From Gammaproteobacteria bacterium (GTDB lineage: Bacteria > Pseudomonadota > Gammaproteobacteria > Xanthomonadales > SZUA-5), in contig JAUIFV010000030.1 in assembly GCA_030430155.1 (NCBI GenBank), positions 1-36,235 on the forward strand: DNA of 36,235 nt. The letters are read 5' to 3'. Both the position numbers and the translations under genes were made by a program. Below are positions 525-8,887 of this stretch, piece by piece. Position 1 is the first letter of the stretch. Each line of letters starts with the position of its first letter. The notes below the pieces were generated by a model. That model ran no database searches and had not been told where the DNA came from. It worked only from the letters and a program-made list of their open reading frames with translations.

Positions 525-1130
525 GTGCGATTGGCCGATTCGCAGGACAATGTCGAAGCCGAGGCGAGTTCGGCCGAGATCGAAATGGAAGCGATCGCGC
601 GGCGGATCATGGCTGGCGACCAAGCCGCGGAGGGCGAACTGGTACAGCGCAGCCGTTTCGCACTGTGGATGATCCTGGTCAAGCGCGGCTGCCCGCGTGA
701 GGAGGCAGAGGACCTGGTCCAGGAGGCCCTGATCGTCGCCATAGCTCGTCTGCGTGCGGGGGAGATAGACGACCCGGGGCGTATCAACGGCTATCTGCTG
801 CGAACGGCTTTGTACATGCGGCGGGGCACCCAGCGGCGTCTGGCCGAAACGCGCACGGTCTACGACGCCGAGTCCCTGGACAGCTACGCCGATGACCGGG
901 CCGACCCGCTGGCCGAGCTCGATCGCAATCAGCGTGAAGACCTGCTGCGGCGTGCCTTGAGCTGGCTGCGGCAGTCGCGTGATCGCGATTTGATACGGCG
1001 TCATTGCTTGCTGCAGCAGGATAAACAGGAGATCTGCCGCGACATGGATTTGTCATTGGACCATTTCGACCGCGTGCTGCACCGGGCGCGTCGTCGTCTG
1101 GCGGATTTGCTGCGGCCATTGCTGGATTGA
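525..1130 (+). CDS. ECF-type RNA polymerase sigma factor (first locus)
   Basis: A sigma-70 family factor of the extracytoplasmic-function type, which directs RNA polymerase to a small regulon. The region 2 helix contains GCPREEAEDLVQEALIVAIA, with the usual acidic D/E residues of region 2.2. Region 4 ends in a helix-turn-helix, KQEICRDMDLSLDHFDRVLH, followed by an Arg-rich helix RARRRLADLL. The frame is open from 396, but the upstream part overlaps the modC end and looks non-native. GTG at 525 or TTG at 531 follows GAGGGAG; TTG 531 has the better spacing. ATG 585 is a shorter option. The next genes encode a membrane anti-sigma-like protein and a TPR-CHAT protein, so this factor is probably held inactive by the former. 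The exact start is uncertain; the family call is secure. Confidence 0.85.
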   Translation: MRLADSQDNVEAEASSAEIEMEAIARRIMAGDQAAEGELVQRSRFALWMILVKRGCPREEAEDLVQEALIVAIARLRAGEIDDPGRINGYLLRTALYMRRGTQRRLAETRTVYDAESLDSYADDRADPLAELDRNQREDLLRRALSWLRQSRDRDLIRRHCLLQQDKQEICRDMDLSLDHFDRVLHRARRRLADLLRPLLD

Positions 1131-1208
1131 GCGCCGGGAACTCTGAATGAGAGGATTGGTACGCAAAGCACAGTGTTGTCATCGAAACCCAACTGTGCGA
1201 GCGACGTG

Positions 1209-1946
1209 ATGAAGATGAAAATTGTCAGTTCCCAAGCCAAGTCCGGCCCGCCAGATGCGGAGAGCGAGTTCCGCGACTGGGTCGATCCCTATTTGCGCGA
1301 CGAGCTCGATCCGGGGCAGACCGAGCGATTCGAGCATGCCTTGATCAGCGATCCGAAGTTGCAGCAGCTGACGCGGGAGGCCTATGTCCTGAACGAGCTA
1401 AGCCGGGAATTTCCCGAGCAGCTCGCGGTACGGGACAGGCTTTGGCAGCGCCCGCTGTTTGGCTACGCGATGGCGGCCAGTCTGGGCGCGGCTGTGGTTG
1501 CAGCGCCGGCGTGGTGGGTCCAGGACTCGCTGCGCGATCAACACAGCGAACTCGCGCTGCAGCTGCAGCAGGCTCAAACCAGTTTAGCCGAGATCGCCAC
1601 GCCGCAAGCTGGACTTGCGGTATTGCGATTGGGGACGACTCGCTCGGGAGAGACCAATGATGCGCTGTTGCGGCAGTCGGCGCAGGTGCGGTGGGCGCAG
1701 CTGATACTGCCCCAGGTCGCGCCCGATGGGAGCCCGTGGCCTAGCGATGCGCAAGTGTTGCTGCAGACCGAGCAGGGCGCCACGATCAACAGCTTCAGCC
1801 TCGGTGCAATGGATATGGTCGGCGGACCCAGCCTGCTGTTGCCCATCCAGTCGCTGTCGGCCGGCCGCTATACGATCGCGGTCGTCGAAATAGATACGCT
1901 CTTGGGTGCATATGCCTTTCGCCTTGCAGCCGAGTCGAATCAATGA
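1209..1946 (+). CDS. membrane-anchored anti-sigma-like protein (zinc-less ASD, single TM)
   Basis: About 245 residues if started at ATG 1209 (MKMKIVSS); the frame is open to a GTG at 1173. Residues about 20-62 resemble the anti-sigma domain of FecR/RskA-type regulators: FRDWVDPYLRDELDPGQ, then a helix ending in ISDP. The CxxC zinc motif of classical ZAS proteins is absent. One transmembrane helix follows (about 83-104, FGYAMAASLGAAVVAAP). The periplasmic part then has a short Gln/Ala-rich coiled-coil-like stretch (ELALQLQQAQTSLAEI) and a beta-rich domain with the pattern LSAGRYTIAVVEI, similar in style to RskA C-termini. It lies 78 bases after the ECF gene on the same strand and is the obvious candidate inhibitor of that factor. 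The family match is by pattern, and the anti-sigma function is inference. Confidence 0.7.
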   Translation: MKMKIVSSQAKSGPPDAESEFRDWVDPYLRDELDPGQTERFEHALISDPKLQQLTREAYVLNELSREFPEQLAVRDRLWQRPLFGYAMAASLGAAVVAAPAWWVQDSLRDQHSELALQLQQAQTSLAEIATPQAGLAVLRLGTTRSGETNDALLRQSAQVRWAQLILPQVAPDGSPWPSDAQVLLQTEQGATINSFSLGAMDMVGGPSLLLPIQSLSAGRYTIAVVEIDTLLGAYAFRLAAESNQ

Positions 1947-2167
1947 GACCGACGGCTGTGTGGCCAATGTGCTGTGAACCCTGTCCTCGATAGACAATTA
2001 TTTACATTAGCGTCGCTGTCGCTACAGTCTGCGCCGTTCGCTTCTTAGTCCGCGCGGGAACGCGCCTGGGAGGACTTCGCTGAGCTTCGTCTGAGCCGGC
2101 TCGGTCGGCAGCTTGGGCCGGGATCAGCATAAGGTCACTTTCGGTCTGCAGCGCCTTGGGGCAAGCT

Positions 2168-5100
2168 GTGGCGGTGAACGTCCACACGCCGTCCATCAAG
2201 CGCTTGCGACCAGTTCTGGCGAGCTGGCTGTTGGCCTTTGCAATGCCTTGCTCACTGGCCGGCAATGCCGCCCCGGAGCCGGAGCGCGGCGTCATTGCCG
2301 GCGGGCAGTCGCTACGTGTGGCGATCCCACAGCCGGCCGACGCCTTCGCGCTGGAACTGCGCGAGCGCGGCGTCGACCTAGTGGTCGACCGACCGGACCT
2401 GGGACCCCAAGCTTTCGCCAATTTGCCCGGCCGGCGCTGGGGTGGCCAGGTATTGGCCGCATGGCGGCTGCCGGCTGGGACAGCCGAGTTGGTGGTACGA
2501 CCGCTGTTGATCAATGCGCCCGCTGGCGAGTACGAACTGCGCTGGCATCGATTGGAAACCAACCAGTCTGCGCAGAAGCTGGTGCTGGACGCGCTCAGCG
2601 CAGCGGCCGATCTGGCACCACAGCGCGACCGCGAGTCCACTCAAGCAACCTTACAGAGGCTGCAGCTGGCGCAGGAGGGCATCGCGGCGCTGCGGCTCAG
2701 CAGTTCAATGGCTGCAGACGACAACTTGAGTTGGCTGGATCCGGCCGAAATCTGGTTTCGCATAGGACAGCTGCACGGGCGTGCTGGTGACGTGGGTGCG
2801 GCGCAGTCGGCCTATGAGGCGAGCTTGGCCCTGTTGCAAAACAGAACGGACAGCGCGCTGGGATTAGCCCACGTGCTCGACGCTATAAGCATGAACCAGC
2901 TGCGCCAGGGGCGACTGCAGGATGCGGTAAAAAGCAGTGCGCTGGCCGCACGCGCGGCCATGCATTCCGAGGAGCCCTACCAGCAGGCCGTGGTTAGTAA
3001 CAATGCCTGTGTGATTTTGCGGGCAGGTGCCGACATGCGCGCGGCTGCAGCCTGCTTCGAGACCGCGTTGGCGCAGTATGAGCAGGCGGGATTGGTCGAA
3101 CACCAAAGCGCGGTCCTGACCAATCTGGCCGCGGTTCACACCAACCTGGGCAGCGGGCATGAGGCACTTGCCGCTTTGCAGCGTGCGCTGGCCTTGCGCA
3201 GCGGTGCGGCGGGCGAGGACGATGACATTGCCCGAGTGGCGACTCTGGTACATCTGGCGCAAACCCAGGCTCGGCTGGGCCGTTATCAACAGGCCCTGCG
3301 CTCGGGTCACCAGGCGCTCACCCTAGCGACTGAATTGGGCAACGATGCATTGCAGCAGCAGGCCGTGCGCGTGCTGGCGAGCAGCCACCTGGATTTGGGG
3401 CAGGTGAATCGGGCCCGGGAACTGCTGCGGGCGGCGCAATCCGAACCGAATGGCGCCTCTGAATTCGGCTCTTTGCGGATGGCGCTGACTGCGGCGCTGG
3501 CGACCGCCAGCGTTCAGGAGCGAGTGCGGTTGCTGGCGCAGGTGACCGAAGCTGCCGCTGCTGCCGGCGACGATCTGGCCCTCGCGCGCGGGCAGCTGCA
3601 TTGGGCAGCCGAGGCTGATGCCGCCGCGTTGGAAGAGCGGGTCAGTGCACTGCGCAGTGCGCTGGCCCTCGCCGAGCGACACGGTCTGCTTTCGCTGCAG
3701 ATTCGCGCCAATCTAGGCTTGGCTGAACTGCTTCCGGCCCGCGCTGACGGGCTGCTGGAGCGGGCGCAGGCGCTGGCGCGAAGTGCGGACTTTGCCCCAG
3801 AGCAGCACTCGATTTACTACGCCAAAGCAAGACTGGCGGCCGCTCACGGTCAGCTGCCGCAGGCGCGGCGCTGGATACAGGCGGCCGATCAGTTGGAAGA
3901 TCAGCTGAGCCTGCGCATGAATCGCGCTCAGCGTCATCAGTTCCAGCGCTCACTGCGGCAGCGACAACAATTCGCCCTGGGTTTGGTGGCCCTGGATGAT
4001 GCCAGCGTAGTGGTCGCGGCCGATTGGGTGTTGCAGCGCCTGTTGCGCAACCGCGCTCAGCTGTGGCGAGAGCAATCCAGGCAGCAGTTGGCCGCAGCAA
4101 GGGCCGAGTACCGTCACGCGCTGGAGCGGGTTGAGTATCTGACCAACGCCATCGATGCGGTGGCGCCCTCTGCAGCGGCGGAGCTCACCCTGCAGCGCGA
4201 AGCGGCAATGGCTCAGGTCGAGGCGCTGGAGTCTGCACAGCCGAAACGCCGCGAACGACTCGATCTGACTCAGATCCAGGGGCAGTTGGACGGCGCTGAT
4301 CGATTGCTGCTGCTCGCACTGGGCAGCCCGCATTCGGTGGCAGTGAGTATCTCCAAGGCGGGCGTGGCGTTGATCCCATTGCCTGAATCGGCAGTCCTGG
4401 AAGCCGCCGCTGGCAGCGTGCGCGAGGGCTTGAGTCGTCAGGATCCCATGGGCCAAAAGGCGCTAGCGCGGCGCTTCGCATACTTGAGTGGCATGCTTGC
4501 ACCGGCCTTTGCGGATGCTGAGGCGCCGGCCAGCACCTATGTGCTAAGTGATCCCGAACTGGACGCGGTGCCCTTGGAGGTACTCGCAGGCGCTGATCCG
4601 CGCTCGTCCGAATCCGCCGAGCGCCTACTGCGCTGGGGCATCGGCAGCGGCGACGACTGGTTTCCGCCGCGGCCTGCGCTGCCGCTCAACGCGGAGCTGG
4701 TGTTACTGCATGATCAACGTCGCAAGCTCGATACTGATCAATCGCTGGCGCCATTGCCCTATGCCGCTGCTGAGATCGAGCGCATCGCGGCGCAGTGGAC
4801 GCCATCGAGCACGCTGCGCTTGGCTGGACCGGAAGCGGCCGCTTGGCTGACTGATCATCAGCTGCGCCGCATCGGCGTGCTCCACGTCGCCGCGCACGTG
4901 GTCAATGATGAGCTGCTGGACGCAAGCAGCGTACTGGCAATGGGTAGTGCGGCCAATGAGGCCAGAGTCAATCTCGGACTGTTACGCCATCAATCACTAC
5001 AGACCGAATTGACCGTGCTGAGCGGGTGCAGCTCAGGCGTAGGTGCGCAGGGGGAGTTTCGGCAAGGATTTGCCGAGGCCTTCATAGACTCCGGATCCAG

Positions 5101-5341
5101 GCGCGTGCTGGCCACGCTGTGGCCCGTGGATGACGAGGCCTCCGCTGCCTTCATGGACGAGTTCTATAGGCACCTCATTGCCGATTTGGAGCGCTCGCCA
5201 GCGACAGCGCTGGCCAAGGCCAAGCGCACCTTCGCCAGCAGCGCGCGTTGGCGTGACCCTTACTGGTGGGCAGGCTACCAGCTTTGGAGCAGCCACTTCG
5301 GCGCTGCTCGATTGGACCAGAGCATCGCCAGCAATCGCTAG
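2168..5341 (+). CDS. exported TPR-CHAT domain protein, putative caspase-like peptidase
   Basis: A protein of about 1057 residues. The N-terminus RLRPVLASWLLAFAMPCSLA, ending before GNAA, looks like a signal peptide. TPR-type helical repeats fill roughly residues 200-560 (for example ALGLAHVLDAISMNQLRQGR and SAVLTNLAAVHTNLGSGHEA), followed by a helical, coiled-coil-like stretch. The last third is a CHAT domain, the caspase/separase-like fold. The catalytic His is in LHVAAH (about 910), the catalytic Cys is in VLSGCSSG (about 954), then come RRVLATLWPVDDEA and the closing WRDPYWWAGYQLW. Both catalytic residues are present, so activity is plausible. GTG 2168 or 2174 fits the signal peptide best; TTG 2156 also lies in frame. 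It follows the ECF and anti-sigma-like genes with a 221-base gap. CHAT proteins are known as proteases, but the substrate here is unknown; the anti-sigma-like neighbour is a candidate. Confidence 0.85.
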   Translation: MAVNVHTPSIKRLRPVLASWLLAFAMPCSLAGNAAPEPERGVIAGGQSLRVAIPQPADAFALELRERGVDLVVDRPDLGPQAFANLPGRRWGGQVLAAWRLPAGTAELVVRPLLINAPAGEYELRWHRLETNQSAQKLVLDALSAAADLAPQRDRESTQATLQRLQLAQEGIAALRLSSSMAADDNLSWLDPAEIWFRIGQLHGRAGDVGAAQSAYEASLALLQNRTDSALGLAHVLDAISMNQLRQGRLQDAVKSSALAARAAMHSEEPYQQAVVSNNACVILRAGADMRAAAACFETALAQYEQAGLVEHQSAVLTNLAAVHTNLGSGHEALAALQRALALRSGAAGEDDDIARVATLVHLAQTQARLGRYQQALRSGHQALTLATELGNDALQQQAVRVLASSHLDLGQVNRARELLRAAQSEPNGASEFGSLRMALTAALATASVQERVRLLAQVTEAAAAAGDDLALARGQLHWAAEADAAALEERVSALRSALALAERHGLLSLQIRANLGLAELLPARADGLLERAQALARSADFAPEQHSIYYAKARLAAAHGQLPQARRWIQAADQLEDQLSLRMNRAQRHQFQRSLRQRQQFALGLVALDDASVVVAADWVLQRLLRNRAQLWREQSRQQLAAARAEYRHALERVEYLTNAIDAVAPSAAAELTLQREAAMAQVEALESAQPKRRERLDLTQIQGQLDGADRLLLLALGSPHSVAVSISKAGVALIPLPESAVLEAAAGSVREGLSRQDPMGQKALARRFAYLSGMLAPAFADAEAPASTYVLSDPELDAVPLEVLAGADPRSSESAERLLRWGIGSGDDWFPPRPALPLNAELVLLHDQRRKLDTDQSLAPLPYAAAEIERIAAQWTPSSTLRLAGPEAAAWLTDHQLRRIGVLHVAAHVVNDELLDASSVLAMGSAANEARVNLGLLRHQSLQTELTVLSGCSSGVGAQGEFRQGFAEAFIDSGSRRVLATLWPVDDEASAAFMDEFYRHLIADLERSPATALAKAKRTFASSARWRDPYWWAGYQLWSSHFGAARLDQSIASNR

Positions 5342-5618: not shown

Positions 5619-6113
5619 ATGAACTTTCGCAACTTTCTCGTCGTAACGATGGTCCTTTGCTGCGCGGCTGCCGGGCAGGTATCGGCAGCGCCGAGCAAGG
5701 GGAGCAGCGGAGAGCAATGCCCCATCGGCAATCAGCTGGCGAATGCAAAAACGCCATTGGCCGGACTTTGGCGCGTCAACGCATACAGGGAAATCAATGG
5801 CGTGAAGAACTACGCCACGGCGGGAGACGCGGTACTGATCGTCCCCACTCTGATTCCGGGCGAGGTGTGCGTGGAATTTACCTCGCCGGTGGAAGGGAGC
5901 CAGCACTACTACCTCGCCTTGGAGCCCGACGGCAAGACCATTGATGAAACCGTCTACACCGAATACGGCGGTGAGTTGCGCATTCTGTTTCGCTATCGCT
6001 CGGCCGACTCGGTGACCTTCGTGCTCTACCACCGGCCCCTCGGTGGGACGACTGCGGCCAAGGGTGGTCCGGATGAGGGCGGTGCGGTAGGCGAGGTAGA
6101 GAGCTGGGATTGA
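5619..6113 (+). CDS. small exported protein of unknown function
   Basis: 164 residues. It begins with a clear signal peptide (NFLVVTMVLCCAAAGQVSA, cleavage probably after SAA or nearby), so it should be periplasmic or secreted. The mature part has two Cys, in EQCPIGN and GEVCVEF, which could form a disulfide. It is predicted to be beta-rich from alternating patterns such as HYYLALEPDGKTIDETVYTE, and has a Gly-rich acidic tail. AGGAG lies 7 bases before the ATG, which settles the start. It stands alone, after a repeat copy and before another unknown gene on the same strand. I do not recognise the family. Confidence 0.75.
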   Translation: MNFRNFLVVTMVLCCAAAGQVSAAPSKGSSGEQCPIGNQLANAKTPLAGLWRVNAYREINGVKNYATAGDAVLIVPTLIPGEVCVEFTSPVEGSQHYYLALEPDGKTIDETVYTEYGGELRILFRYRSADSVTFVLYHRPLGGTTAAKGGPDEGGAVGEVESWD

Positions 6114-6220
6114 CTGGGCATGGAGCACGGATGCCGCAGCCGAGAATCTAGCTCTTGCGTGATCGAAATATCTGCGCTTCTACGCGTCTTGTGGATATGG
6201 CGATCAACAGGAAGGGAAGC

Positions 6221-7159
6221 ATGAACATGATTTGGTCTCAACAGGCGGACAGCGACATAGCTGAAACGTTGGCAGGCCTGCACCATTGTCTGGCACCGAG
6301 CAGCCGTGGCAGCGACAGCGAGTCCTTCAGTGGCCTGTTGTGTGGGGCTTGGGATCTGCGTTTGCTGCTGTTGGAAGTGGGCAGCGGCGTCGATGGCGCG
6401 CACGGACCTTGGCCGTCGAACTGGTTTGACGCCAGCAATGGGCCGGTCGTCGCTGGACTGCGCCTGCGCGCCGAGCGCTGGTCACCGCAACAGGTGGATC
6501 TGGACGAATTGGACGAGCGATTCGAAGGTGTAGGAGGGATCTGCCTATGGTTGGGTGAAGACTCCGACGATTCGGCACACGCCGAGTTGGTCGTCGACAT
6601 TGCCCGCCGCGCCCACGCCATGGGCTTGAGCGTGCTGACCAGTGGGCCGCGCAGCGCGGGCCTGACGATGGGCAACGCCGGCACCGAGGACTTGAGCAAG
6701 ATCTCTCAGATCTACGCTGGAGACATTCCGGTCGATGCGGTTGCCACGCAATCTGCGGAGTCCAAAACCTTGGCGCCGGTGAAACGCCTGCTCAGCGATT
6801 TGCCTAGCGATCAGCGTTTCCAGGCTCGCGTGGCGGTGCTCTCGGCGTTGGGCTGGGAAATGCAGCAAAGCGGCAGCTGCCTGCACGGGCTGGAACGACG
6901 ACGCGCGTTGGCCGTCGGAGAGCGTCTGCTGATTGCGATGGCCGAGGCCACCACGGTGGAGTGGGCAACCGAGACGATGACCCTGCTGATCGCCGCGGTT
7001 CGCGCCAAGAACACTATGGATACGCGGCTGCGCAACATGGCCAATGATCGGCTGGGGCTGCTGGTGCTGCTGGCGACGGCGCGGCTAGGCCTACGCTGCC
7101 GCAGCTTTACAGTTCGAGAAATCTGCCGCGAACTGGGCGCGGTGGCGACCGGAATGTAA
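6221..7159 (+). CDS. cytoplasmic protein of unknown function
   Basis: 312 residues from ATG 6221 (MNMIWSQQADSDIAET). The frame is open further upstream (TTG 6155, ATG 6197), but GGAAGGGAAG directly before 6221 is a strong ribosome binding site and decides the start. There is no signal peptide and no transmembrane segment. The first half has an alpha/beta look (GICLWLGEDSDD, VVDIARRAHAMGLSVLTSG). The second half is mostly helical, with VAVLSALGWEMQQSGS and an Arg/Leu-rich C-terminal region that includes a possible winged-helix-like end, FTVREICRELGAV. I do not recognise the family. It is followed by the heptamer repeat tract that precedes guaB. Base composition is like that of its neighbours, so there is no sign of recent transfer. 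Confidence 0.7.
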   Translation: MNMIWSQQADSDIAETLAGLHHCLAPSSRGSDSESFSGLLCGAWDLRLLLLEVGSGVDGAHGPWPSNWFDASNGPVVAGLRLRAERWSPQQVDLDELDERFEGVGGICLWLGEDSDDSAHAELVVDIARRAHAMGLSVLTSGPRSAGLTMGNAGTEDLSKISQIYAGDIPVDAVATQSAESKTLAPVKRLLSDLPSDQRFQARVAVLSALGWEMQQSGSCLHGLERRRALAVGERLLIAMAEATTVEWATETMTLLIAAVRAKNTMDTRLRNMANDRLGLLVLLATARLGLRCRSFTVREICRELGAVATGM

Positions 7160-7165
7160 GCGGGA

Positions 7166-8887
<1,722 letters not shown>

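Follow-up and report, generated by a model that had tools for sequence, protein, structure and literature searches.

In two forms, proteins with a CHAT domain are already known alongside pairs of extracytoplasmic function (ECF) sigma factors and their anti-sigma factors. In Craspase, a type III-E clustered regularly interspaced short palindromic repeat (CRISPR) system, cleavage of the inhibitor Csx30 by the TPR-CHAT protease Csx29 is proposed to free the sigma factor; Csx29 displays no strict residue requirement, and no residue of Csx30 is essential at its site (PMC10028731). The other form is DdvA, the anti-sigma factor of the Myxococcus xanthus ECF factor DdvS, whose signal has been described as unknown (PMC4374960). 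In the literature that we searched, the terms "CHAT domain", "ECF sigma factor" and "anti-sigma" occurred together in the Craspase paper only. Here we analyze a locus in a 36,235-nucleotide contig of a gammaproteobacterium (JAUIFV010000030.1, assembly GCA_030430155.1; the entire contig is hereafter the window), which codes for an ECF-type sigma factor, a membrane anti-sigma-like protein and a TPR-CHAT protein with a predicted signal peptide. An initial annotation of this DNA had read these genes as a possible protease-controlled sigma switch with the same three roles as in Craspase; an open reading frame check places the three co-directional genes exactly where it had them. We propose, with a modest degree of confidence, that the trio constitutes a transmembrane sigma switch, in which the exported CHAT protein, as the site-1 protease, would cut the anti-sigma factor after R145 and thereby free the sigma factor.

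The sigma factor is recognized by the TIGR02937 ECF model with an E-value of 2e-10, slightly short of its curated cut-off, and by Pfam Sigma70_r2 at 0.011 only. A profile of its relatives recovered solved ECF sigma factors, with the RpoE structure 1or7 at 3e-9 and RpoE, SigW and SigH structures in the range of 1e-7 to 1e-10. With predicted regions 2 and 4, and neither region 1.1 nor region 3, it is thus assignable to the ECF (group IV) sigma factors. The product of the next gene gave weak matches only (zf-HC2, 0.002; NCBIfam anti-sigma, 0.004). In keeping with its description as single-pass and zinc-less, it has one transmembrane (TM) segment at about residues 83-99 and no cysteine, and therefore lacks the class I zinc motif HxxxCxxC, which is present in just one of 65 relatives; a hydrophobic helix was found in all 65 anti-sigmas. 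Its AlphaFold (AF2) model (mean predicted local distance difference test score, pLDDT, 85) displays a helical N-terminal domain (16-75), then a long helix (82-130) that includes the TM segment, and finally a beta domain at the C-terminus, and a fold search with this model returned nothing beyond generic Ig-like and phage baseplate matches. Adjacency to the sigma gene, which recurs across the family (67 of 80 loci, see below), the N-terminal helical domain and the single TM segment together identify it as a predicted membrane anti-sigma factor, which would bind the sigma factor through its cytoplasmic part.

The third protein, which ends at 5341 and starts at 2156 or 2174, combines a CHAT domain (PF12770, E 7.6e-29) with TPRs. 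Its AF2 model (pLDDT 87, predicted TM-score 0.88) retrieved DdvA, separases (9hn0, 9hm7, 5fby) and Csx29/TPR-CHAT (8eey_B, E 5e-12) as the best fold matches in the PDB using Foldseek, and a CHAT-domain profile run against the PDB likewise placed DdvA first (7e-7), followed by TPR-CHAT/Csx29 (7y9x) and separase. The catalytic His of the HVAAH motif and Cys of the SGCSSG motif, which the initial annotation had reported as retained, are conserved across the aligned family: His904, His908, Cys952 and Asp987 are each present in 58 of 58 sequences. The spacing between His908 and Cys952 is 44, as against 43 between H615 and C658 of Csx29. Fold and His908/Cys952 thus mark the window protein as a predicted clan CD separase-like CHAT cysteine protease. 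Given its long TPR arm, one could instead envisage that it senses without catalysis and, like RseB, binds the anti-sigma factor, proteolysis being unimportant; yet the strict retention of His908, Cys952 and Asp987, despite a whole-protein identity that averages only 18%, renders this very improbable.

With regard to its location, the N-terminus of the window CHAT protein features basic residues followed by a hydrophobic segment from residue 13. A hydrophobicity heuristic (not SignalP; threshold 1.9) identified signal-peptide-like starts in 55 of 64 CHAT relatives as against 2 of 69 sigma factors, the window protein itself scoring 1.87, marginally below the threshold. The signal peptide originally predicted for this protein is thereby supported family-wide, to the extent that the heuristic allows. 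In combination with the TM segment and model of the anti-sigma factor, these starts predict that the protease and the beta domain share one side of the membrane.

We then asked how far the trio is conserved in other genomes. In a sample of 300 genomes of the order, a profile built from 13 sigma factors detected 83 relatives in 56 genomes; for 53 of these 83, a CHAT domain is encoded no more than 8 kb away, whereas chance would give about 0.8. CHAT domains are found in 98 of the 300 genomes, including 54 of the 56 that bear the sigma factor (Fisher p 1e-29). Among 80 named loci retrieved by the sigma motif HFDRV alone, a CHAT domain lies within 8 kb in 61 and an anti-sigma gene is present in 67; many of those devoid of one or the other end at contig borders. 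These loci span the Lysobacterales, Alteromonadaceae (Aliiglaciecola, Paraglaciecola, Glaciecola, Alteromonas, Aestuariibacter), Marinicella, Arenicella, Steroidobacter and others. Phylum-wide, the sigma factor is rare, being found in 6 of 399 genomes, all from the same class and including the window's own. That genome carries a second complete set on another contig (C100; locus L083, 5737-11950), with genes for a sigma factor, an anti-sigma factor, a trypsin, a small protein and a CHAT protein. The pairwise distances of the trio proteins also co-vary (r 0.64 for sigma and anti-sigma, 0.52 for sigma and CHAT, 0.78 for anti-sigma and CHAT; none of 2000 permutations was as high), though part of this is owed to shared species history. 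The three genes hence form a conserved, co-diverging locus rather than a chance neighborhood, and a failure of the trio to be conserved, which would have told against the initial annotation, is excluded.

The initial annotation had favored the periplasmic domain of the anti-sigma factor as the likely target, and our comparison narrows this down to a juxtamembrane loop, in which cleavage would occur. In an alignment of 65 anti-sigmas with a mean identity of 16%, the sole invariant residues are Met1 and an arginine, Arg145 in the numbering of the window protein. This arginine sits 16-46 residues past the TM helix (46 in the window protein) on the predicted periplasmic side, and in the model R145 lies in a loop (141-151) between two strands. 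It occurs in the context [hydrophobic]-[E/D/S]-x-x-R-[S/G/A], e.g. VYLETMR↓S, where the arrow denotes the predicted cleavage point: among the 65 sequences, P5 is L/V/F/I in 60, P4 is E/D/S in 40 and P1' is S/G/A in 64. An alignment-free pattern search recovered the site in 52 of the 65 anti-sigma tails, as compared to a mean of 3.2 and a maximum of 11 in 500 shuffles. A stricter pattern was enriched in the anti-sigmas only (35 vs 3.9 shuffled), while the remaining genes of these loci, sigma and CHAT included, were not appreciably above chance. By eye, 17 of 18 anti-sigmas of the order that are outside the alignment possess a matching site (e.g. LETMR↓S, LEPTR↓G, VDIMR↓S, FDTMR↓G, IEGVR↓G), as does the second anti-sigma of the window genome (YIDKMR↓D). 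Separase cuts after the invariant Arg of the motif [D/E/S]PhiExxR (PMC12609080), and the anti-sigma motif resembles this cleavage motif. Certain sigma/anti-sigma pairs with no adjoining CHAT gene keep the Arg motif (L134, L137, L106, L114, L115, L117 and L088; DTLR↓G, DPVR↓S, DTMR↓G, DDMR↓A), and are candidates for control by a CHAT protein encoded elsewhere.

On these grounds, we envisage that the N-terminal cytoplasmic domain of the anti-sigma factor would keep the ECF sigma factor inactive until the TPR arm of the exported CHAT protein detects, in the periplasm, either a signal or a partner protein, for which the small protein of the cassette described below is a conceivable candidate. The CHAT domain, thus activated, would make a single cut in the membrane-proximal loop after the invariant Arg145, whereupon an RseP-type site-2 protease and cytoplasmic proteases would finish the inhibitor and release the sigma factor; a gene for an M50 site-2 protease of the RseP type is present in the window genome. 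What we infer are the sigma binding, the cut after R145, the signal that activates the protease and the genes under sigma control. More tentatively still, and a shade short of an even call, we would extend this to a widespread non-CRISPR family of gammaproteobacterial switches, in which an exported separase-like CHAT protein, as dedicated site-1 protease, cuts the anti-sigma factor at an invariant separase-type PhiExxR↓S/G site, the switch controlling a cassette that includes a haem peroxidase or a trypsin.

Several considerations weigh against this proposal. The case is built from genes and models. The export call depends on a heuristic signal peptide test, and many haem peroxidases and small proteins of the cassettes have no signal peptide by eye, which would be odd if all parts were periplasmic. 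The anti-sigma alignment includes some near-duplicates, and the hold-out anti-sigmas are not independent of it by descent. P4 is acidic or Ser in just 40 of the 65, and the window site, with Gly at this position (GTTR↓S), is therefore not a canonical ExxR. Csx29 has no strict residue requirement, so the family offers no basis for assigning cleavage specificity. R145, for its part, could be invariant for structural reasons or for the sake of another protease. Moreover, anti-sigmas without an adjoining CHAT retain the motif, which is hence no proof of cutting by the neighbor, although nearly all of those genomes have a CHAT elsewhere.

The cassette as first described was confined to three genes; the trio itself stands, but a small protein, haem peroxidases or trypsins and a further copy of the cassette elsewhere in this genome had been overlooked. 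Animal-type haem peroxidases (PF03098) account for 24 of the 31 large proteins encoded between the anti-sigma and CHAT genes; they are found in this position mainly in Alteromonadaceae, Marinicella and Arenicella, and mostly lack an evident signal peptide (L165-L222, e.g. L168 9407-10879). The remaining enzymes are a trypsin, papain, subtilase, or a CHAT-adjacent trypsin fused to a DNA/RNA endonuclease. One such fusion, of Trypsin_2 to Endonuclease_NS, is encoded beside CHAT and sigma genes (L133 1749-3890) and looks like a protease-activated nuclease. In many loci, a small protein of 100-250 residues with no Pfam match adjoins the CHAT gene, its position varying between loci. The tails of these proteins are often acidic and Gly-rich (DDEGSGEEP, GDGTGTGGNG), as in the window (5619-6113) and in L044 5260-5709, L050 7393-7839 and L131 5784-6350, while a second class, from the peroxidase loci, has a Trp-rich tail (WRWK and similar). 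These partners could be the regulon, effectors, a signal or regulators of the protease.

Adjacent genes are often under the control of ECF sigma factors. Accordingly, the main rival explanation holds that the CHAT gene is a target and not the trigger: the sigma/anti-sigma pair would sense envelope stress via a conventional DegS/RseP-type route and induce the CHAT protein, along with the small protein and either peroxidase or trypsin, to serve as an exported response or conflict effector set. The variability of the cassette enzymes fits this explanation, as do the 11 of 53 sigma-CHAT loci that are convergent and the existence of sigma/anti-sigma pairs without an adjoining CHAT. Nevertheless, it predicts neither the invariant separase-like Arg motif in the anti-sigma factor nor that the strongest co-divergence of the three pairs should be that of anti-sigma and CHAT. 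Nor did a common promoter motif emerge upstream of the sigma genes: a search of these regions gave nothing above shuffled controls, and an intergenic alignment of three same-genus loci was likewise uninformative. We therefore regard it as unlikely, albeit deserving of serious attention. A further rival posits that, as in caspase-activated conflict systems, the CHAT protein cuts other members of the cassette, such as the small protein, peroxidase or trypsin, and that another protease cuts the anti-sigma factor. The small protein with its conserved acidic Gly-rich tail beside CHAT in many loci, and an enzyme variability akin to that of conflict-system effectors, would be compatible with this. 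However, among the proteins of the loci only the anti-sigma factor is enriched in the cleavage-like motif, a signal peptide is predicted for the CHAT protein but missing by eye from many partners, and PADLOC matches no system here; we accordingly consider it a distinctly poorer prospect than the target-gene alternative.

The features of both sets are collected in Table 1. In the window, the end of a modC-like gene lies upstream of the sigma gene, and the small protein gene is followed by one for a 334-residue protein (6155-7159) and then by guaB and guaA. At this site, flanked by the cassette and guaB, the 334-residue protein is conserved within the genus, and it has no Pfam or NCBIfam match. 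A 7-base unit, CTGTGCC, is repeated in 14 tandem copies between its gene and guaB (7230-7329). Two same-genus assemblies have the identical gene order modC-sigma-anti-sigma-CHAT, and a second contig of one of them carries the CHAT end, the small protein, a 351-residue protein and guaB.

Table 1. Features of the locus in the window and of the second set in the same genome (L083)
Feature	Position	Strand	Remarks
ECF-type sigma factor	525-1130	+	201 residues from GTG 525; family signature HFDRV in region 4; TIGR02937, profile match to solved ECF sigmas
Zinc-less single-pass anti-sigma-like protein	1209-1946	+	245 residues; weak family matches, AF2 model
Arg145 codon of anti-sigma, predicted P1 of cleavage site (LGTTR↓SGE)	1641-1643	+	65/65 alignment invariance; model loop
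Predicted exported TPR-CHAT cysteine protease homologue	2174-5341	+	1055 residues from GTG 2174; other in-frame starts 2156, 2168; PF12770, TPRs, AF2
Predicted Sec signal peptide region of CHAT protein	2174-2245	+	Hydrophobicity heuristic; helix 12-29 in model
Predicted catalytic His908 of CHAT domain (HVAAH)	4895-4897	+	58/58 in aligned family
Predicted catalytic Cys952 of CHAT domain (SGCSSG)	5027-5029	+	58/58 in aligned family
Small, putatively exported protein with acidic Gly-containing tail	5619-6113	+	164 residues; same position in same-genus genome, 64% identical; no Pfam match
Second-set CHAT	L083 5737-8697	-	
Second-set small protein	L083 9421-9861	+	
Second-set trypsin-like protease	L083 9821-10489	+	
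Second-set sigma	L083 10689-11303	+	
Second-set anti-sigma with YIDKMR↓D	L083 11300-11950	+	

If the proposed switch is borne out, bacterial CHAT proteases, few of which have a known substrate, would gain a substrate class that lies outside CRISPR and comes with a predicted P1 residue, and sigma-factor signaling would gain a new kind of site-1 protease. The switch would also imply that separase-like specificity either predates eukaryotic cohesin cleavage or arose in parallel, and offers a bacterial setting for asking where that specificity originates. As the cassettes are present in cultured genera (Tahibacter, Aliiglaciecola, Alteromonas, Marinicella), a single point mutation would put the cleavage prediction to a direct test. 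In our literature search, no account came up of a non-CRISPR form that is split and exported and whose membrane anti-sigma factor bears an invariant separase-like site, though the coverage of this search is incomplete and an earlier mention is possible.

Among known systems, anti-phage defence was considered and set aside, PADLOC giving weak partial matches only (BovA, LmuA, Avs1b, PDC-M71B and TPR models). Craspase and the window locus have in common a TPR-CHAT cysteine protease, alike in fold, whose gene accompanies those of an ECF-type sigma factor and its inhibitor. However, Craspase is cytoplasmic and activated by CRISPR RNA-guided target RNA via Cas7-11, whereas the window genome (assembly 97% complete) has no match to RAMP (PF03787) or Cas1 (PF01867), in agreement with the original reading that no CRISPR is involved. 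Further, Csx30 is soluble, in contrast to the single-pass TM anti-sigma with an Ig-like beta domain found here; the window CHAT protein carries a predicted signal peptide; and the Csx30 site has no essential residue, as opposed to the one invariant Arg of these anti-sigmas. The absent RAMP and Cas1 genes and the membrane-bound inhibitor rule out membership in Craspase or type III-E CRISPR. Hence, while conservation, export and a periplasmic target have been strengthened relative to the initial annotation, the likeness it drew to Craspase holds as a parallel of logic and not as membership. With the RseA/DegS/RseP system, the locus shares a membrane anti-sigma, a predicted first periplasmic cut near the membrane and an M50 protease for the second, but the role of site-1 protease, filled there by a PDZ serine protease, would here fall to a clan CD cysteine protease from the locus itself. 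Eukaryotic separase, which sets chromosomes free in human cells, resembles the CHAT model in fold and cuts substrates with a P5-P1 motif PhiExxR and an invariant P1 Arg (PMC12609080), although it is cytosolic or nuclear, under securin and CDK1-cyclin B control, and cuts cohesin. DdvA, described in the PDB (8rot, 8rw5) as a transmembrane, CHAT domain-containing anti-sigma, is the top structural and profile match of the window CHAT protein, with His and Cys kept. It joins anti-sigma and CHAT in a single polypeptide, a fusion not seen in the window or the inspected trio loci, where the TM anti-sigma and the predicted exported protease are encoded by separate genes. DdvA is a closer precedent than Craspase.

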